Shown: positions 5,286 through 19,586 of the stretch, one piece after another | How the letters are laid out: the number at the start of each line of letters is the position of its first letter | Numbering within the stretch: the first letter of the stretch is position 1 | Assembly (NCBI GenBank): GCA_017432615.1 | Contig: JAFRIV010000018.1 | Coordinates: 1 to 46,515, forward strand | Length of the DNA stretch: 46,515 nt | DNA from: Oscillospiraceae bacterium | GTDB lineage: Bacteria > Bacillota > Clostridia > Oscillospirales > Oscillospiraceae | Direction of reading: 5' to 3' | Notes under the pieces: model-generated | What the model was told of the DNA's origin: nothing | What the model saw: only the letters and a program-made list of their open reading frames with translations | Databases searched by the model: none | Made by a program: the position numbers and the translations under genes

Positions 5286-5309
5286 AGGGGCTTCCTCCTA
5301 ATAATCGTT

Positions 5310-5330
5310 CTGCGATGGAGATCATCGCAG
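5310..5330 (-). other. 5' UTR hairpin upstream of the antiporter gene
   Basis: CTGCGATG (5310-5317) and CATCGCAG (5323-5330) form a perfect 8-bp stem with a 5-base loop between the promoter and the ribosome binding site. It could stabilise the mRNA or be a protein or RNA control site; no U tract follows. Confidence 0.45.
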
Positions 5331-5339
5331 CTATCGCGC

Positions 5340-5368
5340 ATTTTATCACAGTTTTCCTCTGATCACAA
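5340..5368 (-). promoter_or_regulatory. Promoter of the antiporter-aminopeptidase unit
   Basis: On the minus strand TTGTGA (5368-5363), 17 bases, then TAAAAT (5345-5340). Reasonable sigma-70 type match. Confidence 0.6.
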
Positions 5369-5396
5369 CGGGAAAATACAGTTAAAAAAAACATTG

Positions 5397-5425
5397 TTGA
5401 CGTGCGCCCGTTTGCGTGATACATT
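5397..5425 (+). promoter_or_regulatory. Promoter of the secreted repeat protein gene
   Basis: TTGACG (5397-5402), 17 bases, TACATT (5420-5425). Divergent from the antiporter promoter. Confidence 0.5.
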
Positions 5426-5465
5426 TAACCTGCAGAAGTCTATAAAACTGTAAAGGAGTATGCGT

Positions 5466-7463
5466 ATGAAAAAAAACATAGCGCTGGTCCTGGTCCTGAT
5501 TATGGTGCTGGGGCTGATCGGAAGCGCCCAGGCTGAGCCCACAAAACTGACGGCCCAGCAGGCGGACATGCAGATCAACTACCTGTTCTCCAATTTCAAG
5601 ACCTTCCAGCAGGACGAAACAAACCGCACCTGGCAGTATGCCGTGACGGACCTGAACCATGACGGTCAGCTGGAACTGATCGCCGCTTCCCTGAACACGG
5701 CGGACCATACGACCGACGTGAAGCTCTGGGAAATGAACCTGAAGGACAGCACCTTCCGCGAGGGCAAGATCACCGTCCCGCAGAATGACACCTTCCCGGA
5801 CATCATTGCCGAGAATGCCGACACCTATTATGACAAGGATACCGATACCTGGTCCTACATGTTTTACGACAATGTGGTGCTCTCCCAGGATGATGTCTAT
5901 TCCGTCAAAACATCGGTGACCTATAAAGAGGAAAGGCTGAACTTCACCCGTCTTGCCATCCAGCACACGATGAATTTGAACGGATACATCAGCACCACGT
6001 ATACCGACTTCGACGGCAGAACGATCACGCCGGAGGCCTACAATTCCGCCGGCGCGAATGCGTACGCCACCTTGGAAAAGAGCAGCACAAACTTTGACTG
6101 GTTCCGCTTCGCCGATGTTTCCAATGTATCGCGCCTCGCCGACAGCTATTCGGTTTTTGACGGGGAAAAGCAGCCGGACAAGACGACCCCGGCCCCCACG
6201 CCGATCCCTTCCAGCGGGCCGCAGCCTCCCCGCCCCACGTATCTGACGATCACCAAAAACCCGACCAATGAGACCCATGTCGCCGGGGAAACGGCCTGGT
6301 TCGTTGCCGACGCCAACGCCTATGACTCCCTGACGTGGACGTTTATCTCTCCGAACGGCGGCCAGTATTCCTGGTCAAGCTTCAGCAACATCTTCCCGTA
6401 CGCCAGCGTAGGCGGCTCAGGCAGCACCACGCTGAGCATCAGCAATGTTGCGCAGGATATGAACAACTGGAGCGTGGCCTGCACGTTCTATTACAACGGG
6501 CAGACGGCACGTACCAATTCGGCATATCTCTATGTGCGCCAGTCCCCGAAGCCAACCCCGACGCCTGTGCCGTACGGCGGCATGATCACCGGTTCGGTGA
6601 CGGACTTCGCCATGAGCACGGTCTCCCTCTATCTGAACAACGGGACCAGTGTTTCCATCCCCCGGGAGATCTGTGACTGCCAGGGCGATTATTACATCGG
6701 CGCCTCGGCCGATGTGTATTATAACGGCAGCGCTCCCACAAGGCAGAGCATCTACCGCGTCGTTGTTTACGGAAAGCAGCCTCTCGGGCCGATCTACGGC
6801 TCCGCCAACGGCACGATCTATGCCTGCGCCATGCATACCTTCATGATCCACTTTACCGAAGGGGAGGATGTGCAGGTCAGCCGCGAAGTGGCCAACGTTG
6901 TCTACGGAGACATGACGGAAGGCTGCAGCTGCACGGCCTACTATCAGAATTATCCCTCCTCCGAGAATATCTACCGGGTGGATATTTACGGCACGGAACC
7001 GATCCCCGATCCCGAACCGGATCCCGGTCCTCCTCCCGAACCGACCGGCGGTACGATGGGCGGCTCGATCTACGCCTGCGCGATGAACACCTTCATGATC
7101 CACCTGGACAACGGGACGGATGTGCAGGCCGATCGGGAAGTGGCCAACGTGGTCTATGGGGATATGACGGAAGGCAGCCCCTGCACCGTCTATTATTCCG
7201 GTTCCTCCCCCACCAGAGATACCATCTATCAGGTGGACATCTACGGTTCGACCACACCTGTTGAACCGGAGGAAGAGACCCACGCCACGGGCTTTTTAGG
7301 TCTTCCGGATACAAACACACCGGAAGATGACTGGACCGATTATTCAGACTGGTCCGATTACTTTGATGCCAGCGACTTCTCCGATTTTACCGAGGATTCC
7401 CTTACGGACGAAGAATGGGCTGCTCTGCTGGAGCTTTTCAGCGACGACAGTTCAGACTACTGA
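5466..7463 (+). CDS. Secreted modular protein with Ig-like domain, three internal repeats and acidic tail, 665 aa
   Basis: Unrecognised exported protein. The ATG at 5466 is preferred over 5460 because AAGGAG ends one base before 5460 but seven before 5466. A signal peptide spans residues 1-23 and ends SAQA|EP. Residues 24-235 form a globular domain containing DLNHDGQLEL (about 62), an EF-hand or FG-GAP-like calcium loop. A Pro/Thr linker follows. Residues 257-358 look like a bacterial Ig-like domain. Three related units of about 65 residues then follow (372-436, 442-509, 530-594), the last two sharing IYACAM-TFMIH and REVANVVYGDMTEG, separated by Pro-rich linkers. The tail (619-665) is rich in Asp, Ser, Trp and Tyr. 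There is no LPXTG motif or C-terminal membrane anchor, so it is either released or held non-covalently. Single-gene unit with its own terminator. Confidence 0.85.
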   Translation: MKKNIALVLVLIMVLGLIGSAQAEPTKLTAQQADMQINYLFSNFKTFQQDETNRTWQYAVTDLNHDGQLELIAASLNTADHTTDVKLWEMNLKDSTFREGKITVPQNDTFPDIIAENADTYYDKDTDTWSYMFYDNVVLSQDDVYSVKTSVTYKEERLNFTRLAIQHTMNLNGYISTTYTDFDGRTITPEAYNSAGANAYATLEKSSTNFDWFRFADVSNVSRLADSYSVFDGEKQPDKTTPAPTPIPSSGPQPPRPTYLTITKNPTNETHVAGETAWFVADANAYDSLTWTFISPNGGQYSWSSFSNIFPYASVGGSGSTTLSISNVAQDMNNWSVACTFYYNGQTARTNSAYLYVRQSPKPTPTPVPYGGMITGSVTDFAMSTVSLYLNNGTSVSIPREICDCQGDYYIGASADVYYNGSAPTRQSIYRVVVYGKQPLGPIYGSANGTIYACAMHTFMIHFTEGEDVQVSREVANVVYGDMTEGCSCTAYYQNYPSSENIYRVDIYGTEPIPDPEPDPGPPPEPTGGTMGGSIYACAMNTFMIHLDNGTDVQADREVANVVYGDMTEGSPCTVYYSGSSPTRDTIYQVDIYGSTTPVEPEEETHATGFLGLPDTNTPEDDWTDYSDWSDYFDASDFSDFTEDSLTDEEWAALLELFSDDSSDY

Positions 7464-7504
7464 TCGGACAAATACCATATGCGTTCCTGTCTGCAGGAAT
7501 ACCG

Positions 7505-7538
7505 GAGAGCTTCCCGTTTTCGGGGAGCTCTCTTTTTT
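7505..7538 (+). terminator. Intrinsic terminator after the secreted repeat protein
   Basis: A 12-bp stem (7505-7516 with 7521-7532, one G-U pair) has a TTTT loop and is followed by a T tract (7533-7538). Confidence 0.9.
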
Positions 7539-7607: not shown

Positions 7608-7636
7608 TTGTATTATCGGAATGGTCAAGCTATAAT
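7608..7636 (+). promoter_or_regulatory. Promoter of the nucleoside-type catabolic operon
   Basis: TTGTAT (7608-7613), 17 bases, consensus TATAAT (7631-7636). Expected transcription start about 7643. Confidence 0.75.
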
Positions 7637-7638
7637 GA

Positions 7639-7666
7639 TATCACAACTGGTTATGACGACATGATA
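7639..7666. promoter_or_regulatory. Candidate operator of the GntR regulator
   Basis: TATCA (7639-7643) and TGATA (7662-7666) flank an 18-base centre that contains GGTTATGAC, loosely like the GT-N4-AC core of HutC-type GntR sites. It overlaps the expected transcription start, a typical repressor position. Assignment is tentative. Confidence 0.35.
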
Positions 7667-7691
7667 TTATAATGCATGGGATGTGAGGACG

Positions 7692-8417
7692 ATGGCTTAC
7701 ACTCCGCCAAAATATTATATCGTAAAACAGTCCGTCCTTGGAAAGATCCATTCCGGCGAGTGGAAGCCGGGCGCGGCCATTCCGAGCGAGCGGGAACTGA
7801 TGGCCTCGCAGGATGTCAGCAGGATCACCGTTCGGAAAGCGGTGGAGGAGCTGGAGCAGGAAGGCTATCTGTACAAGGTGCAGGGCAAAGGCACTTTTGT
7901 GCGGGGCGAGAAGAAAAAGCAGGATCTGTTTTCCCTGACAAGCTGCACGGAGGATGTGATCCGGCAGGGGATGACGCCTTCCCGCAGGCTGATCGACAGT
8001 GCGGTGGTCCCCGCAGACCCGGAAAGGCGGGATGCCCTGCGTCTGGCCGAAGGAGAAGCTGTTTTCCGCCTCTGCAGAGTCTACTGCGCCGACGGGGAGC
8101 CGATCAACTATACAAAGGCGTATCTCCCGTACAGGCTGTTCCCGGGCATCGAGCAGTATGATTTTTCCGTTCTCTCCCTGTATAAGATCCTGGAAGAAAA
8201 ATTCGGGGTCGTGATCAGGCGGGCACAGCGGACGATCGAGGCCGTGCTGGCGGACGGGGAGCTGGCGGCGCTTCTGCAGATCCATCCCGGCACGCCCATG
8301 ATCCATTTCCGGAGCGTCACGATCGGAGAAACGTCCGGGAAGGAACTGCCGATCGAGACCTTCTACAGTTATTACCGGACGGATATTTTCAAATTTTCCA
8401 TCGATCAGGTTCGCTGA
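7692..8417 (+). CDS. GntR-family transcriptional regulator with UTRA domain (HutC subfamily), 241 aa
   Basis: DNA-binding regulator. The N-terminal winged helix (residues 1-70) has the GntR pattern: GEWKPGAAIPSERELMA, then ISRITVRKAVEELEQEGYLYKVQGKGTFV. The C-terminal UTRA effector domain follows (about 90-235), with typical EGEAVFRLCRVYCADGEPINYTKAYLP and PGTPMIHFRSVTI stretches. UTRA domains bind small metabolites such as sugar phosphates, and binding usually lifts repression. The ATG at 7692 is preferred, with GAGG just upstream; an in-frame GTG at 7683 is also possible. It is the first gene of the operon, directly downstream of a consensus -10 and a candidate operator, so it very probably controls itself and the ten genes that follow in response to the imported compound or a derivative. 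Confidence 0.9.
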   Translation: MAYTPPKYYIVKQSVLGKIHSGEWKPGAAIPSERELMASQDVSRITVRKAVEELEQEGYLYKVQGKGTFVRGEKKKQDLFSLTSCTEDVIRQGMTPSRRLIDSAVVPADPERRDALRLAEGEAVFRLCRVYCADGEPINYTKAYLPYRLFPGIEQYDFSVLSLYKILEEKFGVVIRRAQRTIEAVLADGELAALLQIHPGTPMIHFRSVTIGETSGKELPIETFYSYYRTDIFKFSIDQVR

Positions 8418-8447
8418 AAAACCATTGAAAAGGAGATAGATATACTT

Positions 8448-9593
8448 ATGATGAGACCGATTAAGCTGGCGGGCAGCCAGCTGATGATGGGCGCGGGATG
8501 CCTCGCTTTCCTGAAGGATCTCGGCGCAAAAAGAGCGGCAGTCGTTGTGGGCGGCGGCAGCATGAAGCGCAGCGGGATCCTTGACCGGGTAATCGGTTAC
8601 CTGGAGGAGTCCGGCGCCGAGACGGCAGTTTTTGACGGGGTGGAAGCGGATCCGTCTTTCCGCACGGCGATGCGCGGCGCGCAGTTCATGCTTTCCTTCC
8701 AACCGGATCTGATCATCGGCCTCGGAGGAGGCAGCGCAATGGATGCTGCCAAGGCGATGTGGATCTACTATGAGCACCCGGAAATGACCACGCTGGAAGA
8801 ACTGCTGACGGCGAAGCCTTTCCCCAAACTCCGCGCCAAGGCGCGCTTCTGCTGCATTCCTTCCACAGCAGGCACGGCGTCAGAGGTCTCCCGTTCCATT
8901 GTGATCACCGGAGACGACGGGCTGAAGCACGGGCTCGGGAATATGGAGATGATGCCGGATATTGCCATCTGTGATCCGCTGGTAACGGTTTCCATGCCGC
9001 CGAAGATCACGGCGGAAACGGGCATGGATGCCATGACGCATGCGCTCGAAGCACTTGTGAGCACCAGGGCGCACTATGTTTCCGATGTGCTGGCAAAGCA
9101 GGCAGTGATCGATATTTATCACTATCTCCCGAAGGCCTACGCCGACGGGCAGGACCTGGAGGCAAGGGAAATGATGCTCAATGCCTCTACCATTGCGGGT
9201 ATGGCCTTTACCAACGTCTCTCTCGGCATCGTGCACAGCATTGCCCAGACGCTCGGCGGCGTTTATCACGTCTCCCACGGCCTGGCGGACGCCGTGATCC
9301 TTCCCTATATTATTGAATACAATTACGCGGATGCCCGTTCCAAGGAGCGGTACGACGCCATGGCGAAGGCCCTCGGAAAGGAAGACCTTGCGCAGGTGAT
9401 CTTTGAGCTGAACGACCGGCTGAATATCCCGAGAAACCTGAAGGGCGTCATCAAAGACAAAGAGGACTATTATGCCCGTCTGCCTGAACTTGCCGACATT
9501 GCCCTGAAAGACGGCTGCACCAAAACCGCCCCCATTATCCCGAGCTTGGAGGGCATGGAAGAGCTGTTCGTCCTGGTGTACGAAGGCAAGTGA
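8448..9593 (+). CDS. Iron-containing (group III) alcohol dehydrogenase, 381 aa
   Basis: NAD(P)-dependent dehydrogenase of the FucO/AdhB-like group III family, interconverting an aldehyde or ketone and an alcohol. The coenzyme loop is GLGGGSAMDAAK (about residues 92-103). The metal ligands appear as D194 and H198 in GMDAMTHALE, H263 in GIVH and H277 in VSHGLADAV. Position 267, which I recall as a conserved active-site His in FucO, is Gln here (SIAQTLGG), which may mark a different substrate. AAGGAG lies 12 bases before the ATG, a long spacing. Second gene of the operon, 30 bases after the regulator. The substrate may be an aldehyde released when a neighbouring aldolase-like enzyme cleaves its substrate; this is inference. 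Confidence 0.9.
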   Translation: MMRPIKLAGSQLMMGAGCLAFLKDLGAKRAAVVVGGGSMKRSGILDRVIGYLEESGAETAVFDGVEADPSFRTAMRGAQFMLSFQPDLIIGLGGGSAMDAAKAMWIYYEHPEMTTLEELLTAKPFPKLRAKARFCCIPSTAGTASEVSRSIVITGDDGLKHGLGNMEMMPDIAICDPLVTVSMPPKITAETGMDAMTHALEALVSTRAHYVSDVLAKQAVIDIYHYLPKAYADGQDLEAREMMLNASTIAGMAFTNVSLGIVHSIAQTLGGVYHVSHGLADAVILPYIIEYNYADARSKERYDAMAKALGKEDLAQVIFELNDRLNIPRNLKGVIKDKEDYYARLPELADIALKDGCTKTAPIIPSLEGMEELFVLVYEGK

Positions 9594-9614
9594 GCCGGCT
9601 GCTGAGGGACTGAT

Positions 9615-10409
9615 ATGACGGCGAAAGAACTTTTTCAGAAAAAATGCATTATCGGGATGGTCCATCTCCTCCCGCTGCCGGGAACGCTGAACTACACCGG
9701 GGAGATCGATGCCATCTATTCCCAGGCTATCGCGGATGCAAAGGCACTGGAAGAGGGCGGCGCCTCTGCCCTGATCGTGGAAAACATGAATGACGTGCCG
9801 GCTCCCCTCACGCTCAGCGCGGAGCAGTTCGCCTTCCTCGCGGCAGCGGCAGCGCGGGTAAAGGATGCGGTGAAGATCCCGGTGGGGATCGACGCGGCGT
9901 TTTGCGACTGGAAGGCCTCCCTTGCCATCGCAAAGGCCGTCAAAGCGGATTTTGTCCGTCTGGCTGTTTTCGTGGATCAGGTTGTCATCGCCTCCGGGCA
10001 GGTGGACCCCTGCTGCCGGGAAGCGGTAAAATACCGGAAAGAGCTCGGCGCGGAGGATATCCTCTTCCTGTGCGACGCACAGGTCAAGCACTCCTTTATG
10101 AAGGTGGACAGCATTTCCCTGATCGAGAGCGCCAAAATGGCGGAGGAGAACGGGGCGGACGCCGTCATTGTAACCGGGGCGTCCACCGGGCAGGCTACGC
10201 CGATAGAACTGATCCGGCAGGTGCGCGATGTCGTGAAAGTTCCTGTTCTGGCAGGAAGCGGCTTCTCGGCGGAAAACTGTGCCGGGCAGCTGCCGTATAT
10301 AGACGGCGCCATCGTCGGCTCTTCCTTTAAAGAAGGCGGCGTGCTGACAAAGCCGGTGGATGTGGAAAGGGTCAGAGCGCTCATGGAAAAAGTGAGAGAA
10401 AACAGCTGA
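9615..10409 (+). CDS. BtpA/SgcQ-family TIM-barrel protein, 264 aa
   Basis: The N-terminus has the family signature IIGMVHLLPLPGTLNY (residues 12-27), followed by DAKALEEGGASALIVENMNDVP, and near the C-terminus VPVLAGSGFSAENCAGQLPYIDGAIVGSSFKEGG. These are hallmarks of the BtpA/SgcQ family (PF03437), a beta/alpha barrel. BtpA was linked to photosystem I accumulation in cyanobacteria, and SgcQ belongs to an uncharacterised sugar operon in E. coli; no reaction is established that I know of. A phosphate-binding site in the C-terminal GSGF/IVGSS region is likely by analogy with other TIM barrels. It lies 21 bases after the dehydrogenase and 15 before the TrpA-like gene, so two different barrel enzymes are made together. 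Confidence 0.88.
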   Translation: MTAKELFQKKCIIGMVHLLPLPGTLNYTGEIDAIYSQAIADAKALEEGGASALIVENMNDVPAPLTLSAEQFAFLAAAAARVKDAVKIPVGIDAAFCDWKASLAIAKAVKADFVRLAVFVDQVVIASGQVDPCCREAVKYRKELGAEDILFLCDAQVKHSFMKVDSISLIESAKMAEENGADAVIVTGASTGQATPIELIRQVRDVVKVPVLAGSGFSAENCAGQLPYIDGAIVGSSFKEGGVLTKPVDVERVRALMEKVRENS

Positions 10410-10424
10410 GGAGGAGACACTGCA

Positions 10425-11147
10425 ATGAAAGTGATCTGTTATCTGTCTTATGGCTATCCGTCGATCGACTATAGCCTGAAAATGGCCAAATGCTATTATG
10501 AGGCCGGGGCGGACATGATGGAGTGCAGCCTCCCGGCGAGAGACCCGTATATCGATTCCGAGTTTATTGCGGGCCGCATGGCGGATGCCCTCGCCGCCTG
10601 TGACGACTATGACGTCTATCTGGAAAAGCTGGGTGAATTTCGAAAGGAGAACCCGGATTTTCCCGTCACCTTCCTGCTGTATGAGCACACCATGCTTGAA
10701 ATCGGCATCGACAAGCTGGTCGCATTTATGAAAAAATATGATATCCGCAATATCATTTATGCGGGCAACATCGATCATCCGGAAGTCAAAAAGCATCTGA
10801 TCGAGGAAGGCATCGGCATCTGCTGCCCGGTCAATCACCACATGGTCGAGAAGGATATTGAAGAGGCCGTTCATACCAACGGTTTTACCTACATGGAGGC
10901 AAGGCCGCTCACCGGGTCCAAAGAAGGGTATGAGGAGCTCGAGCCGTGTATCCGCACCCTGCGGGAAAGAGGCATCGACAGGCCGATCTACTGCGGCGTA
11001 GGGATCCACACGGTGGAGGATGTGATCTACGCCAAACGTGCCGGAGGAGACGGCGTCTTCATCGGCAGTACGCTGATCAAACTGTATGACCGGCCGGAAG
11101 AAATGAAAAAAACCATTGCGGAATTCAAAGCAGCCGCCAACGGCTGA
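10425..11147 (+). CDS. Stand-alone TrpA-like TIM-barrel lyase, 240 aa
   Basis: The sequence has tryptophan-synthase-alpha character: MKVICYLSYGYPSIDYSL at the start, then MMECSLPARDPYIDS (residues 31-45), aligning with the TrpA segment ELGVPFSDPLADG. Both catalytic acids of TrpA (Glu49 and Asp60 in the enteric enzyme) have counterparts here, E33 and D44, with the same 11-residue spacing. The C-terminal phosphate-binding part is YCGVGIHTVEDVIYAKRAGGDGVFIGSTLIK. There is no TrpB partner or other trp gene in the window, and length is slightly under the 260-270 of true TrpA. Together with a nucleoside-type transporter this suggests a retro-aldol type cleavage in a catabolic pathway. GGAGG lies upstream of the ATG. 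Product and substrate are unknown. Confidence 0.85.
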   Translation: MKVICYLSYGYPSIDYSLKMAKCYYEAGADMMECSLPARDPYIDSEFIAGRMADALAACDDYDVYLEKLGEFRKENPDFPVTFLLYEHTMLEIGIDKLVAFMKKYDIRNIIYAGNIDHPEVKKHLIEEGIGICCPVNHHMVEKDIEEAVHTNGFTYMEARPLTGSKEGYEELEPCIRTLRERGIDRPIYCGVGIHTVEDVIYAKRAGGDGVFIGSTLIKLYDRPEEMKKTIAEFKAAANG

Positions 11148-11215
11148 AAGATGGTCTGAATACCGGATAATACCATGCTTATGGTTTATCAATAATCAAA
11201 AAAGGAGAAAGAACA

Positions 11216-12379
11216 ATGAAAAAATTCCTGGCAATCGTCCTCGCTCTGTCCATGGTCTTTGCACTTTGTGCAGTTTCGGCTTCGGCAGACAGCAAACTGA
11301 AGATCGGCTTCGTAACAAGTGCAGCCGGCGCAAATGACAACGGCTATAACCGTTCCGCAGTCGAAGCCGTAAAAGCCTGTGCAGAAGAATTCGGCTTTGA
11401 CTACAAAATCGTAGAACCCTCCGCATCCCTTACGGTCGGCCAGGCAATTGAAGCTCTCGCAGAAGACGGCTTTGACATGGTCCTGAATCTCGAGTACGAC
11501 TTCGCAGCCCTGATCAACGGCACCGGCGCGACCGGCAACGTTCCCATTGCCGAGCAGTATCCGGATGTCACCTTCGTTATTTTCAACGACAACCCCAACG
11601 TCAATGAAGACGGCTCTGTAAAATTCAGCAATGTCTACTCCTGCATGTTCAACGTCAACGAGGCATCCTACCTCGCCGGCTACCTCTCCGTCTATGTCAA
11701 TGAAAATCTGGACAAGCTCTTCCCCGAAGGCTACAGCTTCACCCCGACTTCGGAAGCACGCGGGATCGGCTTTGTGGGCGGCACCGACTCTGCCGGTATC
11801 CGGGTATTCTCCTACGGCTTTATGGAAGGCATCCAGGCAGCTGCGGAAGAACTGGGCGGCGTTTCGTATGACTACTACCCCGTTTATGATGCAGGCTTTG
11901 TAGATTCTGCAGCAGGCAACACCACTGCGGGCAATATGTATCAGCGCGGTGCAAACGTTGTCTTTGCTGATTGTGGGAATGTAGGCGACGGGATCACAGA
12001 GCGCGCAGAAGCCGACGGCAAGCTGGCCATCCAGGTTGATGCAAACCTTGATGATACGCACCCCGGCCACATCCTGACGTCTGTTCTCAAGATCACCGGT
12101 GTTCCCACCCGTTCTCTGATTGAAGCGAAAGTCAACGGCACGATCGACCAGCTTGACAATCTCCTGAACTTCTCCCTCGGCTCCGGTGCATCCGGCATCA
12201 CCGACCTGGCAACCATTTCCGGCTTTGTTGCCGACAAGGACTGCTGGGATGAAATCGTTGCAAAAGTGAATGACAAGGCGGAGAAGATCGGCTCGGGCGA
12301 AATCGTTGTCACCAATGCCCAGAACGGCGATGAGTTTGATCCTGCCTCCTGCCCGCTGGTCGTTGTCAAGTCCAACTGA
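11216..12379 (+). CDS. BMP-family (PnrA-like) nucleoside-type substrate-binding protein, 387 aa
   Basis: Extracytoplasmic binding component of a BMP/PnrA-type ABC importer; characterised relatives bind purine or pyrimidine nucleosides. The signal peptide is residues 1-24, ending VSASA|DS. The mature part opens with LKIGFVTSAAGANDNGYNRSAVEAV, the typical BMP opening in which Asp and Asn contact the nucleoside, and continues with VGFVGGTDSAGIRVFSYGF. No lipobox is seen: the only Cys in the leader is in FALCAV, with Leu rather than a small residue before it. This is unexpected for a Gram-positive binding protein. AAAGGAG lies before the ATG. It is separated from the ATPase gene by a strong hairpin, which probably keeps this gene expressed above the membrane components. 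Confidence 0.9.
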   Translation: MKKFLAIVLALSMVFALCAVSASADSKLKIGFVTSAAGANDNGYNRSAVEAVKACAEEFGFDYKIVEPSASLTVGQAIEALAEDGFDMVLNLEYDFAALINGTGATGNVPIAEQYPDVTFVIFNDNPNVNEDGSVKFSNVYSCMFNVNEASYLAGYLSVYVNENLDKLFPEGYSFTPTSEARGIGFVGGTDSAGIRVFSYGFMEGIQAAAEELGGVSYDYYPVYDAGFVDSAAGNTTAGNMYQRGANVVFADCGNVGDGITERAEADGKLAIQVDANLDDTHPGHILTSVLKITGVPTRSLIEAKVNGTIDQLDNLLNFSLGSGASGITDLATISGFVADKDCWDEIVAKVNDKAEKIGSGEIVVTNAQNGDEFDPASCPLVVVKSN

Positions 12380-12430
12380 TTACCAGTTTTTGTAAGAGCA
12401 AAACCGGGCTTTACAAGGTCATAAACTGAG

Positions 12431-12473
12431 AGAACTTGCAATGCTCAATCGAAAGATCAGCATTGCAGGTTCT
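12431..12473 (+). terminator. Intercistronic hairpin (attenuator or mRNA 3' stabiliser)
   Basis: A 15-base arm (12431-12445) pairs with 12459-12473 with one G-U pair, loop of 13, followed by TTTCTAAAA. The U tract is short, so leaky termination or protection of the binding-protein mRNA are both possible. Confidence 0.65.
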
Positions 12474-12505
12474 TTTCTAAAATCCCCTCTGATCGGAGAT
12501 GCGAC

Positions 12506-14047
12506 ATGAATGTAATTGAGACTGTAGATCTGACAAAGCGTTTTGGCAATTTTACAGCCAATGACAAAATTAATCTGACCGTTGAAAAGAACGAGATCAA
12601 ATGTATATGTGGTGAAAATGGGGCAGGAAAATCCACCTTGATGAATATGCTGTATGGCGCACTGCAGCCGACGTCCGGCAAGATCCTGATCAACGGGAAA
12701 GAAGTGCATTTCAAAAGCCCTGTCGATGCGATCGCATGCGGGATCGGCATGGTCCATCAGCATTCCAAGCTGGTTCCCAGTCTGACGGTCTATGAGAACA
12801 TCATGCTGGGGATCGAGATATCCAAAAAAGCGGGAAAATTCAACTCCCCGTTTATTGACGAAAAGGAAGAGCGCCGCCAGGTGCAGGAGCTCATTGAAAA
12901 ATATCATTTTCAGCTCAACGCTGAGGACAAGGTTGCAGATCTTTCCGTCGGCCAGTGCCAGCAGCTGGAAATACTGAAAATGCTTTATCGGAATGTCGAC
13001 ATTCTCATTCTCGATGAACCGACTTCCGTCCTGACGCCGCAGGAGGTAGACTGGCTGATCGACAACCTGAAAAACCTGAGCCGTCAGGGGAAGACGATAC
13101 TGGTCATCACCCATAAGCTTCGGGAAGTGATGGCTGTCAGCGATTCTGTAACGGTGATCCGCCAGGGGAAAGTGATCGGCGTTGCCAGAACAAAAGATAC
13201 CAACGAGCGGGAACTGGCCCAGATGATGGTGGGGAGAGACGTGGTCCTTACTGTCAGCAACGAAAACGGCGGGGAACCCGGCTCTGATACGGTGTATGAA
13301 GTCAGCGGACTGTGCACCAATAACCATCTCGGACTTGATGTGCTGAAAAATGTCAGTTTTCAAATCCATAACCGGGAAATCTACGGCATAGCGGGCGTGG
13401 AAGGGAACGGCCAGAGTGAACTGATCAAGGTGCTGACGGGCATCATGCTCGCTACCAAAGGTTCTGTCCGTCTCTTTGGGGAGGACATTACGAATCTGTG
13501 GCCGGATGAACTGCGCCGTAAGAAGATCGGGATCATCCCGGAGGATCGATACAAACATGGTCTTTGCCGGGACATGACCCTGGCGGACAACTGCTCTGCC
13601 GGATATCTGGATGACGCGGAGATCACAAGGCGCGGGATCCTGAACCGGAAAAACATGCAGAAACGCTGCCACGATTATATTGAAAAATACGATATCCGTA
13701 TCGCGGATGAATATGGAAATGTCTCCCAGTGCTCCGGCGGCAATGCCCAGAAGCTGATCATCGCCAGAGAGTTTGAAAGCAGCCCCAGGCTGATCATTGC
13801 CTGCCAGCCGACACGCGGGGTAGACGTCGGATCCATTGAATATATTCACCAGTGCCTGCTGGATTTTCGGAATAAAGGCTATTCCGTGCTTCTGATTTCC
13901 AGCGAGCTTTCTGAGATTATGAGCCTTTCCGACCGGGTGGGCGTCATGTATAAGGGCGAGATCATCGGAGAAGCGGATCCCAAAACCGCTTCGGTGGCAG
14001 ATATCGGGCTGCTGATGGCCGGGACGATCCCGGAAGGAATGAGGTGA
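12506..14047 (+). CDS. Nucleoside-type ABC transporter ATPase with two ABC domains, 513 aa
   Basis: Double ATPase of the RbsA/YufO (NupO-like) type that energises BMP-family importers. Domain 1 has Walker A GENGAGKS (36-43), signature LSVGQCQQ and Walker [14 protein letters not shown], then H-loop VITHK. Domain 2 (from about residue 260) has the degenerate P-loop GVEGNGQSE (about 297-305), lacking the Lys as is usual in this family, a signature CSGGNAQK, and [12 protein letters not shown] in place of a standard Walker B. CGGAG lies before the ATG. It is separated by 7 bases from the first permease gene. With the BMP protein and two permeases it forms a complete importer. Length and architecture are normal. 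Confidence 0.92.
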
Positions 14048-14053
14048 GCCGTT

Positions 14054-15115
14054 ATGAGAAATCACATCGGGAAAAAAATCATCAACTCCATCCTCCCTGT
14101 CGCGCTTGCTTTTACTATCGGAGGTATCATCATTGCCCTGCTCGGCAGCAATCCATTTGAAGTCTACGGCGTGATGATCCGGAAATCTCTCATGGAGATG
14201 AAGGGCATTACCCGGACACTTCAGCTGGCGTCTCCGCTGCTGCTCACCGGCATCGCCATCTCCCTCTGCTTCAAAGCCAATATCTTCAACATGGGTATCG
14301 AGGGGCAGCTGGTTTTCGGCGGGTTCATGGCAGGCATTTTCGGCAGCTATGTCACGATTCCGAATCCTGTCCTGCATATTCTGCTGTGCTTTGCCGTCGG
14401 TATCGCCTGCGCTTTGGCGTTTGCACTGATCCCGGCTGTTCTGCGTGCTTATTATCACGTGGATGAAATGGTTGTTACGCTGGTTTTGAACTACGCAATG
14501 GCAAAAGTCCTGGAATATCTGTCTACTTCTGTGTTCCGCGATGCAGGGTCGGGATATGTTTGCACGCCCGCCGTACAGAAAACAGCAAAATTCTTCCTCC
14601 TGGGGAAGACGAAAATGACAGCGTTTGTCTTTGTCTCCTTTGCTGTTTTCCTGATCATTTCTTTCATCATGACCCGCACGAAGCTCGGTTATTCTATCGA
14701 AGCGCTTGGAAAGAACCCTGACTTTGCCGAGGCCACCGGCCTGCACTCCCGCAAAAAGGTCATGACGCTGATGCTCCTCTCCGGCGCGGTTTCCGGCATC
14801 GCCGGGACAGGGTGGATGCTGGCGGAAAAGACATTCTATACGTTGGACTTTTCCGGAAGTCCCGGCCTCGGATGGGACGGCATGCTCATTGCCCTGCTCG
14901 GACGGCATTCTCCCGCGGGGATCTTTGTCGCAGCGATCTTCTACAGCGCTCTGAAGACAGGCTCGGAAAAAATCGGCCTTTATACCGACGTTCCGAATGA
15001 GATCGTTTCGGTCATTCAGGGCTTGATGATCCTTTTCCTGTCCATTCAGTTTCTGGACGAACGGTTCGGCCTGTTTGAAAAACTCAAACAGAAGAAAGCA
15101 GATAAGGAGGGCTGA
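14054..15115 (+). CDS. Nucleoside-type ABC transporter permease 1 (NupP/YufP-like), 353 aa
   Basis: Polytopic inner membrane component of the BMP-type importer, BPD_transp_2 superfamily (COG4603-like). It has about nine to ten hydrophobic segments and the characteristic NIFNMGIEGQLVFGGFMAG stretch near residue 77, shared by this permease group. The centre (EALGKNPDFAEATGLHSRKKVMTLMLLSGAVSGIAG) is the conserved cytoplasmic loop that contacts the ATPase. The C-terminus is charged and short. It starts 7 bases after the ATPase gene and ends 2 bases before the second permease, so the pair is translationally linked. Substrate specificity cannot be read from the permease but the family is nucleoside-linked. 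Confidence 0.92.
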   Translation: MRNHIGKKIINSILPVALAFTIGGIIIALLGSNPFEVYGVMIRKSLMEMKGITRTLQLASPLLLTGIAISLCFKANIFNMGIEGQLVFGGFMAGIFGSYVTIPNPVLHILLCFAVGIACALAFALIPAVLRAYYHVDEMVVTLVLNYAMAKVLEYLSTSVFRDAGSGYVCTPAVQKTAKFFLLGKTKMTAFVFVSFAVFLIISFIMTRTKLGYSIEALGKNPDFAEATGLHSRKKVMTLMLLSGAVSGIAGTGWMLAEKTFYTLDFSGSPGLGWDGMLIALLGRHSPAGIFVAAIFYSALKTGSEKIGLYTDVPNEIVSVIQGLMILFLSIQFLDERFGLFEKLKQKKADKEG

Positions 15116-15117
15116 TC

Positions 15118-16035
15118 ATGAGAGGGTTGGACAGTATTCTTTACGAATCCATTGTGTATCTCACGCCGACGCTCCTTTGCGTTCTGGGCGGGATCTTTGC
15201 CTACAAGGCGAATGTGCTCAATATTGCACTGGAAGGCATGATGCTGGCAGGGGCATTCGTCTCAGTCCTGGTTGCACACAGCCATGAAAACAAATTGTTC
15301 CTTGCCTATCTTGCGGCTTTTGCCGTGTGTATCTTCCTGGGACTGGTTTTTTCCGTTCTCGGAGTCACACTGAAAGGCAACGTGATCATCATCGGGCTTG
15401 CTATCAATATGCTGGTACCTGCCGTGGCGGGGTTTGTCATGAAGCTGATGTCACTGGCAAGCATCCCGGTAAAATGGTTTTCTACCAACAGCATCATGAT
15501 CAGCATCCCGGTAATCAGGGATATTCCCATTCTCGGACCGCTCTTCAGCGGACACCCGCCGATCACGTATATCTCCTATCTCCTTATCCTTGTAATGTAT
15601 CTGCTGATGTATAAAACAAAATTCGGCGTGCATGTCCGTGTGGTGGGTGAAAACGAGGATGCGGCAATCAACCTCGGCCTGAATACCAAAAAATACAAGA
15701 TCCTTGCGGTCCTGATCGGCGCGGGCTGCTGCGGCCTGGCCGGTACAGATCTTGCCCTGGAAAGACTGTCCCTTTATACCAACAACATGACCGCCGGCAG
15801 AGGTTTTATTGCCATTGCGGCGATTTACTGCGGCCGGGGCGATCCGCTCAAGTGTACCCTCTATGCCATTCTGTTCAGCATCACCAATGCAGTTGCGGAA
15901 TACTTCTCCCTTCTCGTTTCCGCCTCTCTGCTGCTGAAGGTGGTCCCCTATGTGGTAATGGTCGTTGTGCTTTCAGCAGCCTCCGCCCTGAACCGCAGGA
16001 ATTCCCGTACGCGCGGGGCTTTTTCTGAAAACTGA
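15118..16035 (+). CDS. Nucleoside-type ABC transporter permease 2 (NupQ/YufQ-like), 305 aa
   Basis: Second membrane subunit of the importer (COG1079-like). The family stretch ANVLNIALEGMMLAGAFVSV is at about residues 38-57, and the coupling loop RVVGENEDAAINLGLNTKKYKILAVLIGAGCCGLAG at about 175-210. About eight hydrophobic segments cover the sequence. The ATG lies almost directly after the stop of permease 1, with AAGGAGG inside the end of that gene. The C-terminus is Arg/Asn-rich and cytoplasmic. It forms a heterodimer with permease 1 by analogy with the family. The next gene, the hydrolase, starts 17 bases later with its own GGAGG, indicating continued co-transcription. Confidence 0.92.
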   Translation: MRGLDSILYESIVYLTPTLLCVLGGIFAYKANVLNIALEGMMLAGAFVSVLVAHSHENKLFLAYLAAFAVCIFLGLVFSVLGVTLKGNVIIIGLAINMLVPAVAGFVMKLMSLASIPVKWFSTNSIMISIPVIRDIPILGPLFSGHPPITYISYLLILVMYLLMYKTKFGVHVRVVGENEDAAINLGLNTKKYKILAVLIGAGCCGLAGTDLALERLSLYTNNMTAGRGFIAIAAIYCGRGDPLKCTLYAILFSITNAVAEYFSLLVSASLLLKVVPYVVMVVVLSAASALNRRNSRTRGAFSEN

Positions 16036-16052
16036 TCCGGAGGACGGCTGTT

Positions 16053-16646
16053 ATGAAACTGGAAACAATCAAACCTTCCAAAACGGCACTTCTCGTGATC
16101 GATATGACGTATGATTTTACCGATCCGAACGGGAAGACCTTTTACCCGATGAACCGGGAGATCCTGCCCCGTATTGCCGAAGTGGTCAACCGGTGCCGGG
16201 AGATGGGAATGCTGATCATCTTTATGCAGCACTGTTACCGCAAGGATAAACCGGACCGGAATCTCGAGACCATGCGCCCGAACAGCATCGAGGGCAGCGG
16301 AGGAGAGGAGCTCGATCCCATCCTTCCGGTGGATCCCGTGAAGGATTATATCATCAAAAAACGCCGGTACAGCGCTTTCTTCGGAACGGATCTGGATCTT
16401 GTCCTGCGGGAACACCGTATTGAAACTACGGCAGTTGTCGGAACAAAGACGAATTGCTGCGTCCGCTCTACCGTACAGGATGCCTACTTTAACGATTATC
16501 GCGTCGTCGTCCTCAGTGACTGCGTCGGCACGAATTCCCCGGAGGTGAATGCGATCCACCTCTCGGAGATCGATAAATATTTCGGCACGGTCATGTCCTC
16601 CGAAGAATTCCTGAAGCTGGCGGAAAAGGAGATGCGGAAATCATGA
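16053..16646 (+). CDS. Isochorismatase/nicotinamidase-family cysteine hydrolase, 197 aa
   Basis: Cysteine hydrolase fold. The catalytic triad is visible: D17 in ALLVIDMTYDF, K103 in IIKKRRYSAF, and C136 in TKTNCCVRST, which carries the cis-peptide-type GxxTNxCV pattern with Cys135 in place of a more usual Val or Ile. Family members cleave amides such as nicotinamide, N-carbamoylsarcosine or ureidoacrylate, or vinyl ethers such as isochorismate. In a nucleoside-type operon, an amide bond in a base, a ring-opened base or an unusual aglycone is the most plausible target, but nothing here decides between them. The stop overlaps the start of the PfkB kinase (ATGA), implying translational coupling and related function. 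Confidence 0.88.
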   Translation: MKLETIKPSKTALLVIDMTYDFTDPNGKTFYPMNREILPRIAEVVNRCREMGMLIIFMQHCYRKDKPDRNLETMRPNSIEGSGGEELDPILPVDPVKDYIIKKRRYSAFFGTDLDLVLREHRIETTAVVGTKTNCCVRSTVQDAYFNDYRVVVLSDCVGTNSPEVNAIHLSEIDKYFGTVMSSEEFLKLAEKEMRKS

Positions 16647-17590
16647 GAGATGTGATCACCAGCGGATATGTCAGCATGGACCACATCGTAAAGCTGAACA
16701 GCCCGGTCAGAGTCGGCTTTACTTCGCTGATTGAAAACAAGACCTGCTCGGACATCTGCTATGGCGGATGCTCTGTCAATATTGCCTACAACCTGAGGAA
16801 ACTCGGGGTAGACTCTTTACCCGTCATGCGTGTCGGGGACGATTATGAACGGATCGGATTCAAGAAATTCCTGACCGATGCCTCTATTCCTCTTGATGCC
16901 ACCGAGATCATCCCGGACGAACGGACCTCTGTCTGTTATCTGCTGCAGGATAACGAAGGGCAGCATATCACGCTGTTTTATCCCGGTGCCATGGACGGAA
17001 AGTTTGCAAAGGATCTGCCGGATGATCTGTTTGAGGATGTAAGGCTCGCCATTATCTGTGTCGGTTCCGCACAGGATAATGAACTGTTTTTTATGAAATG
17101 CAAAAAGCACAATATTCCCATCGTTTTTTCCATGAAGGGGGATATGAACGCCTTCCCGAAACCTTTCCTCAAGGAACTTCTGGAATACAGCACGATTATT
17201 GCTACCAATGAAATTGAGCGGCAGACCATTGAAACGATTTTTCGGTCTTCCATGGAGGAACTGCTGCACAAAGGGAGGTGTACGCATCTCATCACGACCC
17301 TTGGCAGCGAGGGGAGCCGGTGCACCTGTCTGGAAGGCGGCGTGACAAAAACAGTATCTGCGCCGATCTGCACCTATGGCAAATGCGTCGACACCACCGG
17401 CTGCGGAGATGCTTATCTCACGGGCTTTGTCTATGGCTATCTTCACGGCTATTCCCCGAGAGAATGTGCATTGATGGGCAGCGTCCACGCGTCCTTTATC
17501 CTTGAAGAAGAGGGCTGCTGTACGGCAGCACCGGTGGAAGCAGCATTTCTGGAGAGATATGAACGGTTTCAAAGGGAGGTAAAATCATGA
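16643..17590 (+). CDS. PfkB/ribokinase-family carbohydrate or nucleoside kinase, 315 aa
   Basis: The sequence shows the PfkB fold: an N-terminal GYVSMDHIV and YGGCSVNIAYNLRKLGVDS (substrate-binding GG and N), and C-terminal VDTTGCGDAYLTGFVYGYL (residues 249-267) with the catalytic D256. The anion-hole motif is G-C-G-D instead of the usual G-A-G-D; I associate the Cys variant with several nucleoside kinases of the family, which agrees with the operon. The phosphate acceptor may be a nucleoside or the sugar released by the phosphorylase. Start and stop both overlap neighbours by four bases (ATGA with the hydrolase before and the phosphorylase after), so the three enzymes are made in step. Confidence 0.9.
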   Translation: MRDVITSGYVSMDHIVKLNSPVRVGFTSLIENKTCSDICYGGCSVNIAYNLRKLGVDSLPVMRVGDDYERIGFKKFLTDASIPLDATEIIPDERTSVCYLLQDNEGQHITLFYPGAMDGKFAKDLPDDLFEDVRLAIICVGSAQDNELFFMKCKKHNIPIVFSMKGDMNAFPKPFLKELLEYSTIIATNEIERQTIETIFRSSMEELLHKGRCTHLITTLGSEGSRCTCLEGGVTKTVSAPICTYGKCVDTTGCGDAYLTGFVYGYLHGYSPRECALMGSVHASFILEEEGCCTAAPVEAAFLERYERFQREVKS

Positions 17591-18336
17591 GCAGTCTTTA
17601 TATGCGTGCCACGCCGGATGCCGTTGGCAAATATGTAATTTTCTCCGGAGACCCCTGGAGAGTGAATGTCGTCAAGCAGTATCTGGAAAACCCTGTTGAG
17701 GTGGCCTTTTCCCGGGAGTTCAACACGTACACCGGAACCTACAAAGGCGTAAAAATTACAGTCACATCCACCGGGATGGGGGCGCCGACAGCGGCCATCG
17801 CCATGGAGGAGATGTACGAATGCGGTATGGAAGTTGCCCTGCGTATGGGCACTGTCATGTCCTTACAGGATGATATGCTCGGCCATTTCATCGTTCCCAT
17901 CGGGGCAATGCGCCGGGAGGCTACCAGCAAGACCTATGTAGAAGAGAGTTATCCAGCGGTCGCAGACGTCGGCCTGGTAAATATCCTCAACCGGACCATT
18001 ACCGATCACGGCAGGAAGTATTTAAACGGCATTTCCTGCACGATGGACGGTTTTTACACGCAGATGCATGACAGCCGCTTCAGCCTGGAGAGCGGACGGG
18101 ATATGAAGCCCGTTTTTGATCAGCTGAAGGCCCTTCATGTTTCGGGAATCGATATGGAGTCCTCCTGCATGCTGACCGTCGGCCGCCTGATGGGCGTAAA
18201 AACGGCAGTCCTTACAGTGGTCACCGTCCTGGAAAACTTGAAGAAAACGCTGGAAGGCCAGGAGCGGCTGGATGCGGAAGACCTGCTCTGCCGCATCGCG
18301 CTGGAGGCCATCTGGAGATATGCACAGGAGGCATAA
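17587..18336 (+). CDS. Uridine-phosphorylase-like nucleoside phosphorylase (PNP/UDP family), 249 aa
   Basis: Family: PNP_UDP_1. It would split a nucleoside with phosphate into base and sugar 1-phosphate. Visible phosphate-site elements are GDPWRV (21-26, as GDPxRV in Udp), R86 and T89 in LRMGTVMSLQ. The ribose-site Met-Glu pair is in IDMESSCML. Two departures stand out. The GTxG loop that normally continues with Gly is GTVM, and the uracil-specific Gln/Arg segment (FYPGQERY in E. coli Udp) is replaced by FYTQMHDSRF. The base recognised is therefore probably not plain uracil. The ATG overlaps the kinase stop by four bases. Last gene of the operon; a terminator follows after 40 bases. Confidence 0.88.
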   Translation: MSSLYMRATPDAVGKYVIFSGDPWRVNVVKQYLENPVEVAFSREFNTYTGTYKGVKITVTSTGMGAPTAAIAMEEMYECGMEVALRMGTVMSLQDDMLGHFIVPIGAMRREATSKTYVEESYPAVADVGLVNILNRTITDHGRKYLNGISCTMDGFYTQMHDSRFSLESGRDMKPVFDQLKALHVSGIDMESSCMLTVGRLMGVKTAVLTVVTVLENLKKTLEGQERLDAEDLLCRIALEAIWRYAQEA

Positions 18337-18375
18337 GAAAATCATATCTCCTTTTTGAAAACAGTCTATAAAAAG

Positions 18376-18420
18376 AAGAACGCAACCAGGGAAAATTGAA
18401 CCTGGAAGCGTTCTTTTTTT
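18376..18420 (+). terminator. Terminator of the nucleoside-type operon
   Basis: AAGAACGC (18376-18383) pairs with GCGTTCTT (18408-18415), extended by CCAGG/CCTGG across a small internal loop; T tract to 18420. Confidence 0.9.
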
Positions 18421-18448
18421 ATGCAATTATCAGATGCCGGTCTGAAAA

Positions 18449-18643: not shown

Positions 18644-18672
18644 TTGACAGACGACCCTTTGTTCCCTATAAT
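18644..18672 (+). promoter_or_regulatory. Promoter of the alpha/beta hydrolase gene
   Basis: Perfect consensus: TTGACA (18644-18649), 17 bases, TATAAT (18667-18672). Transcription should begin near 18679, which rules out the in-frame GTG at 18675 as start. Confidence 0.9.
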
Positions 18673-18758
18673 GAGTGAACGAAAGGTCACTTTATTTAAC
18701 GGAGATTGTTATGGCAAGGGAAATAGAAGAGGGACAATCGGGATCCGGAGGGGAAAAC

Positions 18759-19586
18759 ATGATTGAAAAAACATACGAAACGCCGTGCGGCAGCATTCAT
18801 TATTGGATAAATGACATTCCGGATCCTGGCTTACCGGAACTGGTTTTTCTCCCCGGTCTTACAGCGGACCACCGCCTGTTTGACAAGCAGATCAAATACT
18901 TTGAGGAGAAAACCCGCGTTCTGGTCTGGGATGCTCCGGAGCATGCTGCTTCCTGGCCGTTTGCCTCTTCTTTTCATCTGCGTGACAAGGCGTGCTGGCT
19001 TGACGGGATCCTGAAACAGGAAGGCATAGATGAGCCGATCATCGTCGGCCAGTCCATGGGCGGATATGTGGGACAAATGTATGCCCAGCTGTTCCCGGAA
19101 AAGCTGAAGGGCTTCATCTCTATTGATTCTGCACCGCTGCAAAGAGAATATGTTACCGCCGCGGAGATCTGGCTGTTGAAACGAATGGAGCCGATCTACC
19201 GGTATTACCCATGGAAGGCACTGCTGAAGCAAGGAACCAACGGCGTCGCAGCCTCAGAGTACGGCAGAAACCTGATGCGGGAGATCATGATGGTCTATGA
19301 TGGGGATCAGGCCCGGTATGCCAGGATCTCCGGCCATGGATTTCAAATGCTGGCGGAAGCCATGGAGGCGGATCTGCCGTATGAGATCAGGTGCCCGGCT
19401 CTTCTGATCTGCGGAGAGAAGGATCATGCGGGTTCCTGTATCCGATATAACAAAGCATGGCATAAGAAAACCGGCATCCCGATCCAATGGATCAAAGGAG
19501 CCGGTCATAATGCCAATACTGACGCGCCGGAGCTCGTTAACCGGCTGATCGAGGAGATGCTTACATCCGTATTAAGCAAGAAATAG
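18759..19586 (+). CDS. Alpha/beta hydrolase, 275 aa
   Basis: Cytoplasmic hydrolase of the alpha/beta fold. The oxyanion-side HG-like region is LPGLTADHRLFDKQI (about 31-45), the nucleophile elbow is VGQSMGGYVGQM with S99, the acid is probably D in ICGEKDHAG, and the catalytic His is in GAGHNANTDAPE. The start at 18759 has an excellent GGAGGGG five bases upstream; an ATG at 18711 with GGAG would add 16 residues and cannot be excluded. The substrate is unknown; family members include esterases, lactonases and C-C hydrolases. It has its own consensus promoter and terminator, so it need not belong to the preceding operon. Confidence 0.88.
   Translation: MIEKTYETPCGSIHYWINDIPDPGLPELVFLPGLTADHRLFDKQIKYFEEKTRVLVWDAPEHAASWPFASSFHLRDKACWLDGILKQEGIDEPIIVGQSMGGYVGQMYAQLFPEKLKGFISIDSAPLQREYVTAAEIWLLKRMEPIYRYYPWKALLKQGTNGVAASEYGRNLMREIMMVYDGDQARYARISGHGFQMLAEAMEADLPYEIRCPALLICGEKDHAGSCIRYNKAWHKKTGIPIQWIKGAGHNANTDAPELVNRLIEEMLTSVLSKK

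Follow-up and report, generated by a model that had tools for sequence, protein, structure and literature searches.

The 46,515-nucleotide stretch of Oscillospiraceae bacterium DNA analyzed here (the window) carries an operon of 11 open reading frames (ORFs) whose products point to the import and breakdown of a nucleoside. All 11 ORFs are on the + strand and occupy positions 7683 to 18336; the whole unit, including its putative promoter and its terminator, spans 7608 to 18424. The operon encodes a GntR/UTRA regulator, a BMP-type ATP-binding cassette (ABC) importer, and six enzymes, i.e., an iron-containing alcohol dehydrogenase (FeADH), a BtpA/SgcQ-family protein (BtpA), a TrpA-like protein (TrpAL), an isochorismatase-type cysteine hydrolase (Isoch), a PfkB-family kinase (PfkB), and a uridine-phosphorylase-like nucleoside phosphorylase (NP). 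An earlier note on this DNA had placed the regulator, importer, and six enzymes in one operon, and every gene was confirmed at its place and on its strand; each of the ten proteins scanned (all but permease 2) has a Pfam match above the cut-off. So far as a search of the open-access literature shows, the operon is a real, conserved, and undescribed nucleoside catabolic unit, and it looks like an undescribed breakdown route because two of its enzyme families have no known task in such a pathway.

The gaps between successive ORFs are 30, 21, 15, 68, 126, 6, 2, 17, −4, and −4 bases, and a ribosome-binding-like stretch precedes most of the genes as read by eye. The putative promoter (7608 to 7636, + strand), which was read from the sequence, consists of a −35 element TTGTAT (7608 to 7613), a 17-base spacer, and a −10 element TATAAT (7631 to 7636). 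The −10 element is perfect and the −35 element is poor, and the pair is missing from the promoter scan list because of this weak −35 element. Directly downstream of the −10 element is the putative operator TGGTTATGACGACATGATATTA (7648 to 7669, + strand), whose recurrence ahead of the operon in other genomes lends support to the promoter. The promoter is weaker than the note had implied, and it may not be the only one: internal promoters may exist in the 68-base gap before the BMP gene, in the 126-base gap after it, and at a promoter-like site (9/12) that the scan gave at 11144 to 11171. The operon is closed, as the note had stated, by one intrinsic terminator (18372 to 18424, + strand; fold of −23.1 kcal/mol, z = −6.3, followed by a T run). 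A second terminator (7504 to 7533) closes the upstream gene and separates the operon from it. No tRNA (tRNA scan) and no Rfam match at the gathering thresholds were found in the whole window.

The gene set is conserved far beyond this genome. A search of 98 relatives with TrpAL gave a close homologue in only one, G084, which belongs to another family of the same order; none was found in the 60 genomes of the same genus, and the other 20 matches among the 98 relatives are distant (20 to 31% identical). Among 391 genomes of the class, ten (including the window genome itself) have TrpAL at E ≤ 1e-20. In the ten loci from the nine other class genomes and G084, the BMP protein, ATPase, two permeases, Isoch, PfkB, NP, BtpA, FeADH, and TrpAL are all present in that order, and the proteins are mostly 40 to 63% identical to those of the window; the exceptions are in L039, whose binding protein, first permease, and PfkB are 28%, 39%, and 36% identical, respectively. 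Isoch and NP were searched separately in 391 class genomes, which were drawn in the same way as for TrpAL and whose listed members agree. Strong matches (E ≤ 7.9e-69 and 5.9e-82, respectively) occur in exactly the ten TrpAL genomes, and the wide gap to the next-best genomes (7.5e-35 and 5.1e-41) sets them apart.

Scanning named genomes with the TrpAL alignment yielded 55 loci, whereas a scan with the single window TrpAL protein had yielded none. Gene presence in these loci was scored with thresholds that we set, by means of profiles derived from the ten loci plus the window; because TrpAL served to select the loci, of which many are related, the counts are not independent. All six enzymes are present in 48 of the 55 loci, 43 of which also have the whole ABC importer, and the enzyme order is the same in 46 of the 48. 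In five of the seven incomplete loci (L041, L056, L060, L070, and L084), the contig ends shortly upstream of TrpAL. Isoch and PfkB are absent from L092, in which the second permease and NP are shortened, and L091 (Anaerotruncus colihominis DSM 17241, 9571 to 10950) is an apparent decayed remnant; strain JM4-15 of this organism (L069) has the full operon. The hosts include Coprococcus comes, Ruminiclostridium, Caproiciproducens, Anaerotruncus, Olsenella, Tractidigestivibacter, Leptolinea, Anaerolineaceae, two spirochaetes, Candidatus Izimaplasma, and an Anaerobiospirillum metagenome-assembled genome (MAG). We take these hosts to be anaerobes of the Bacillota, Actinomycetota, Chloroflexota, and Spirochaetota, in addition to Izimaplasma and Anaerobiospirillum. 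The conservation across loci and the co-occurrence of the enzymes make the gene set more than a chance assembly, and they contradict the possibility, named in the note as refuting its proposal, that the set is confined to one genome. A glyoxalase/VOC-family ORF adjoins the operon in 15 of the 55 loci (e.g., L049, 10809 to 11267; Pfam was run on two of these ORFs). It is located inside the unit in L082, between the operator and the BMP gene, and in L094 (1613 to 2089), between the BMP and ATPase genes, and may be an accessory member of the operon.

The importer comprises a BMP/PnrA-type substrate-binding protein of 387 amino acids (11216 to 12379, + strand; PF02608, 2.3e-26), an ATPase of 513 amino acids (12506 to 14047, +; PF00005 in two stretches), permease 1 of 353 amino acids (14054 to 15115, +; PF02653, 5.7e-36), and permease 2 of 305 amino acids (15118 to 16035, +). 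Permease 2 has only NCBIfam matches below the cut-off, the best of which is a putative B6 (BMP-type) permease. The characterized BMP/PnrA-type members bind nucleosides (PMC7093131, PMC12628685). In L083, the Anaerobiospirillum MAG, all six enzymes are present, with Isoch last, and a nucleoside:H+ symporter (PF03825, 2.4e-134) directly precedes PfkB; the contig starts 860 bases further upstream of the symporter. The whole L083 genome, which may be incomplete, has no PF02608 match above the cut-off and only one match of 20 bits. The replacement of the BMP importer by this symporter supports a nucleoside substrate, and the two unrelated nucleoside-type carriers that appear to serve one enzyme set are the best evidence for it. 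Nucleoside import, as first proposed in the note, is supported by both carrier families, and we consider it very likely that the operon represents a real conserved nucleoside pathway. The signal peptide of the BMP protein (11216 to 11300) has no obvious lipobox, which relatives such as those in L037, L039, and L057 show as read by eye; this possibly reflects a diderm or otherwise unusual envelope.

BtpA (264 amino acids; 9615 to 10409, + strand) is a (beta/alpha)8 protein with a model pLDDT (predicted local distance difference test) of 90.7. It is a member of the BtpA/SgcQ family according to both PF03437 (2.8e-63) and TIGR00259 (213.1 bits; cut-off, 153.4), and the motif D154-x-Q156-V-K158-H159, which is invariant in all 31 aligned operon-type sequences, marks these sequences as a subgroup. 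It scores well under the cut-off of the photosystem I biogenesis BtpA model (NF045918, 163.1 bits; cut-off, 400). BtpA/SgcQ proteins are widespread, and to our knowledge no reaction has been assigned to the family. Among six other BtpA genes inspected, five are near FGGY or PfkB sugar kinases or a phosphotransferase system gene, and the motif is missing from the four sugar-operon BtpAs, of the six, that were aligned. This gene context points to BtpA as a phosphosugar-type enzyme. The sixth gene, in L115 (7884 to 13117), is located close to a sugar importer and to genes for a class II aldolase and an isomerase of the MtnA type, a set that resembles that of the dihydroxyacetone phosphate (DHAP) shunt; a small neighboring ORF resembles a microcompartment shell protein as read by eye.

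TrpAL (240 amino acids; 10425 to 11147, + strand) is a (beta/alpha)8 protein of the PF00290 family, encoded in an operon without TrpB. It differs from TrpA in scoring 87.9 bits against TIGR00262, under the cut-off of 102.35, and in its residues Tyr86 (invariant) and Glu87 (near-invariant), which we place in the region of the TrpA indole pocket. On the other hand, it keeps the two catalytic acids of TrpA, which are Glu49 and Asp60 in the Salmonella enzyme, aligned with Glu33 and Asp44 in the window (Glu33 and Glu44 are nearly invariant in the 29 aligned members), and the phosphate-binding residues Gly193, Gly214, and Ser215. TrpAL is the only PF00290 match above the cut-off in 9 of 25 hosts examined and is accompanied by a separate match of 291 to 306 bits in 15 of the 25. 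A role as a tryptophan enzyme was rejected on these counts, i.e., the hosts in which TrpAL stands alone and those with a separate, higher-scoring TrpA-family protein.

The other four enzymes were likewise assigned to families. FeADH (381 amino acids; 8448 to 9593, + strand; PF25137 and PF00465) belongs to the iron-containing alcohol dehydrogenase family; among NCBIfam models it matches AdhE best, though at a score far under the cut-off, and it scores 23.7 bits against the glycolaldehyde reductase model NF053832 (cut-off, 550). PfkB (315 amino acids; 16643 to 17590, +; PF00294, 3.5e-31) has the MJ0406 kinase as its closest solved relative (2c49, 8.9e-32) and matches NF053626 (8.4e-15) and the nucleoside kinase model NF041164 (8.7e-17) far under both cut-offs. 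NP (249 amino acids; 17587 to 18336, +; PF01048, 8.4e-32; 3qpb, 1.2e-35) keeps Gly21-Asp22-Pro23-Arg25, Arg43, Arg86, and Gly88-Thr89 in all 26 aligned members, residues that we take to form the phosphate site; it stays under the cut-off for uridine phosphorylase proper (TIGR01718, 155.5 bits; cut-off, 280.3). Isoch (197 amino acids; 16053 to 16646, +; PF00857, 8.6e-42) has invariant Asp17, Lys103, and Cys136 in 27 aligned members, presumably the Asp-Lys-Cys triad of isochorismatase-type cysteine hydrolases, and the basic residues Arg63, Lys66, Arg75, Arg104, Arg105, and Arg138 are likewise invariant. Its score against the RutB ureidoacrylate amidohydrolase model is well under the cut-off (TIGR03614, 81.6 bits; cut-off, 377.95). 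The nearest NCBIfam equivalogs of NP, PfkB, and Isoch are all far beneath their cut-offs.

The two barrel proteins of the window have a history different from that of the remaining genes. Among 48 loci compared, BtpA and TrpAL are 67 to 68% identical to those of L040 and at most 52% and 47% identical, respectively, to all others, and in the trees they group with L040 with supports of 1.0 and 0.999. For the other eight genes compared, the nearest locus is L069, with which the window groups (support, 1.0) both in a combined tree of Isoch, PfkB, NP, and FeADH and in the transporter tree; L040, whose contig has no BMP gene, is not included in the latter. The FeADH tree alone places the window with L047, L069, and L077 (0.963), and support is weak in the tree of NP by itself (0.706). 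Gene order in the window is also atypical: FeADH lies between BtpA and TrpAL in 46 of the 48 complete loci, whereas the order in the window is FeADH, BtpA, TrpAL. BtpA and TrpAL of the window thus appear, from their sequences, to have been exchanged together and independently of the other operon genes, and because of this joint exchange they are probably a functional pair. Because these two genes seldom lie side by side, their having moved jointly suggests that their products catalyze consecutive reactions or form a complex. In the window genome, the TrpA and BtpA families are each represented by a single match, and the old pair therefore seems to have been replaced rather than supplemented, although this genome is about 87% complete. 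L040 itself carries two copies each of TrpAL and PfkB (3897 to 6517 and 9261 to 10723), which perhaps widen its substrate range.

The regulator (244 amino acids; 7683 to 8417, + strand; PF07702, 3.9e-38; PF00392, 1.1e-17) has a homologue in 44 of the 55 named loci, which precedes the enzymes in 40 of them and follows the enzymes in 4. Comparison of upstream regions revealed the string TGGTYATGACGACATGAYATYA in the window (7648 to 7669) and in Coprococcus comes (L072), a site that includes 8-base direct repeats of the CATGACGA type. The L072 form, used as a pattern with up to four mismatches, gave 12 sites in 63 sequences (the 55 loci, the window, and seven upstream stretches, L119 to L125), whereas 20 block shuffles gave 0.05 sites on average; the window and L072, which defined the pattern, count among the 12. 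One site is in the window, where 0 were expected. All 12 sites precede the first operon gene, by 31 to 65 bases in eleven cases and by 537 bases before the BMP gene in L082, in which a glyoxalase-like ORF intervenes. Many of the 55 loci stop at or inside the regulator, which puts the promoter region outside the sequence, and the pattern search at up to four mismatches found no site in L119 to L125; the putative operator appears to be common to part of the hosts only. We infer that the GntR protein binds the putative operator, and since the window form is the sole site with up to three mismatches in the 2.4-Mb window genome, the regulator is probably dedicated to the operon. In L122 (1 to 514 and 12065 to 14145), dihydroxyacetone kinase genes (DhaK by Pfam, DhaL and DhaM by eye) are located directly upstream of the operon regulator, and an ORF at the edge of this stretch resembles inosine-uridine nucleoside hydrolase as read by eye.

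Phosphopentomutase is not among the operon genes, and the window genome has no TIGR01696 match. A full-length phosphopentomutase (TIGR01696 above the cut-off) is nevertheless encoded elsewhere in 19 of the 25 hosts examined, and other PNP_UDP proteins are present in all 25, which argues that the route is not merely a stand-in for phosphopentomutase. Retention of the complete six-enzyme set in 48 of the 55 loci, with phosphopentomutase present in most hosts, does not fit the alternative named in the note, standard salvage with dispensable extra genes. Ten of the 25 hosts, including the window genome, have no match to PF01008 (MtnA/ribose-1,5-bisphosphate isomerase), and thus no isomerase of either type is available in them; the other 15 have one.

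In the scheme that we propose, this locally regulated, self-contained operon would import a nucleoside and dismantle its sugar, skipping the usual phosphopentomutase step. NP and PfkB would release the base from the nucleoside and convert the sugar to a pentose (bis)phosphate, for which ribose-1,5-bisphosphate is the likeliest candidate. BtpA, as a phosphate-binding barrel of the HisF/ThiE/KDPG-aldolase superfamily, would act as the isomerase, and TrpAL would act as an acid-base retro-aldolase, in sequence with BtpA or in a complex with it, so that the products are a triose phosphate and an aldehyde of the C2 type. FeADH would reduce the aldehyde and regenerate NAD+. Isoch is the least certain member; its substrate may be the released base or else an intermediate that contains nitrogen. 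The phosphorylase and kinase, the retro-aldol-type barrel, and the aldehyde reductase named in the note are supported by family membership. The entire sequence of steps, from import through phosphorolysis and phosphorylation to isomerization and splitting by the two barrels and aldehyde reduction, is put forward at slightly less than even confidence.

The closest known parallel is the haloarchaeal non-carboxylating pentose bisphosphate pathway, which comprises a phosphorylase, a PfkB ribose-1-phosphate kinase, ribose-1,5-bisphosphate isomerase, ribulose-1,5-bisphosphate phosphatase, ribulose-1-phosphate aldolase, and glycolaldehyde reductase, with DHAP and ethylene glycol as products (PMC9700705). 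Both systems have a nucleoside phosphorylase (PF01048) and a PfkB-family kinase, with FeADH as a candidate counterpart of the aldehyde reductase, and by family NP, PfkB, and FeADH would fit the first, second, and last steps; the splitting of nucleoside ribose to a triose phosphate and a C2 unit in the haloarchaea is likewise proposed here. The middle steps differ: the haloarchaea use the isomerase, a HAD-type phosphatase, and a FucA-type aldolase, whereas the operon has BtpA, TrpAL, and Isoch. No eIF2B-type ribose-1,5-bisphosphate isomerase is present among the operon ORFs, and neither the HAD phosphatase nor the FucA-type class II aldolase is among the 11 genes, the rest of the genome not having been searched for these two; the operon is therefore likened to the haloarchaeal pathway rather than classed as it. 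The operon also differs in its dedicated BMP importer, its GntR regulator, and its bacterial hosts. The DHAP shunt, a salvage route for 5'-deoxynucleosides that uses an MtnA isomerase and a class II aldolase, shares the phosphorylated pentose, the isomerization, the aldol cleavage, and the aldehyde, but the operon has neither MtnA nor a class II aldolase, unlike the set in L115.

The specific reading that anaerobes use this route for nucleoside sugar, bypassing phosphopentomutase and the pentose phosphate pathway while BtpA and TrpAL isomerize and split a pentose (bis)phosphate, is tentative, and its chief competitor locates the novelty in the base. In that case, which follows the model of the note, a modified nucleoside would be degraded: Isoch would hydrolyze the aglycone at an amide or ureido group, and the sugar moiety would be phosphorylated and split. 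The retention of Isoch with the other five enzymes in 48 of the 55 loci and its resemblance to N-carbamoylsarcosine amidase and RutB would suit this possibility, as would the great distance of NP, PfkB, and Isoch from the nearest equivalogs; a special substrate would also explain why hosts that mostly own phosphopentomutase and other phosphorylases need the operon. However, the six invariant basic residues of Isoch point away from a free base and toward a substrate that is anionic and perhaps phosphorylated, and no recurrent base-processing or base-transport gene was recognized in the flanks (the 25 largest similarity clusters and reading by eye; most flanking ORFs were not searched for families). 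A special base alone also leaves three sugar enzymes unexplained, and we regard this alternative as somewhat unlikely. Those enzymes would find a task if the sugar itself were modified, e.g., 2'-O-methylribose, a sugar that the usual enzymes of ribose phosphate metabolism would reject. A modified pentose phosphate would then be split by the barrels, and FeADH would reduce an unusual aldehyde. This would account for three dedicated sugar enzymes in hosts with phosphopentomutase (19 of 25), and the VOC neighbor in 15 of the 55 loci, which is inside the unit in L082 and L094, may indicate a reactive aldehyde. Catabolism of 2'-O-methylated nucleosides has been termed largely unexplored (PMC12709175). 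There is no direct sign of a sugar modification, however, and Isoch has no role here either, so that this version appears unlikely.

The remaining alternatives are weaker. The best sub-cut-off matches of the transporter are the NCBIfam putative B6 (BMP-type) models, which would suggest that the imported compound is another N-glycoside or a vitamin-like molecule, but these models are matched far under the cut-off (binding protein, 37 of 400 bits), and both the symporter of L083 and NP belong to nucleoside families; we consider this decidedly unlikely. That the operon performs standard salvage of uridine or purine nucleosides, with some of its genes being dispensable passengers, is highly improbable. 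Although salvage uses the same families of importer, phosphorylase, and kinase, the operon lacks phosphopentomutase and NP falls well short of the uridine phosphorylase cut-off; moreover, the supposed passengers are retained in 48 of the 55 loci, the phyletic patterns of Isoch, NP, and TrpAL are identical in 391 genomes, and BtpA and TrpAL were apparently replaced together rather than lost.

If the proposed nucleoside-sugar route is correct, it would provide the first metabolic reaction for the BtpA family and a catabolic, TrpB-free role for TrpA-like barrels, and gut and environmental anaerobes would ferment nucleosides by an undescribed route that releases a C2 alcohol. Since BtpA is encoded here in a compact, conserved operon that has its own importer, its substrate and reaction should be reachable by a few assays, and the six-enzyme signature, together with the operator in part of the hosts, would serve as an immediate genome marker of the pathway. 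Just past the operon, a sigma-70 promoter that matches the consensus at 12 of 12 positions (TTGACA-17-TATAAT; 18644 to 18672) is located ahead of an alpha/beta-hydrolase ORF (18675 to 19586).

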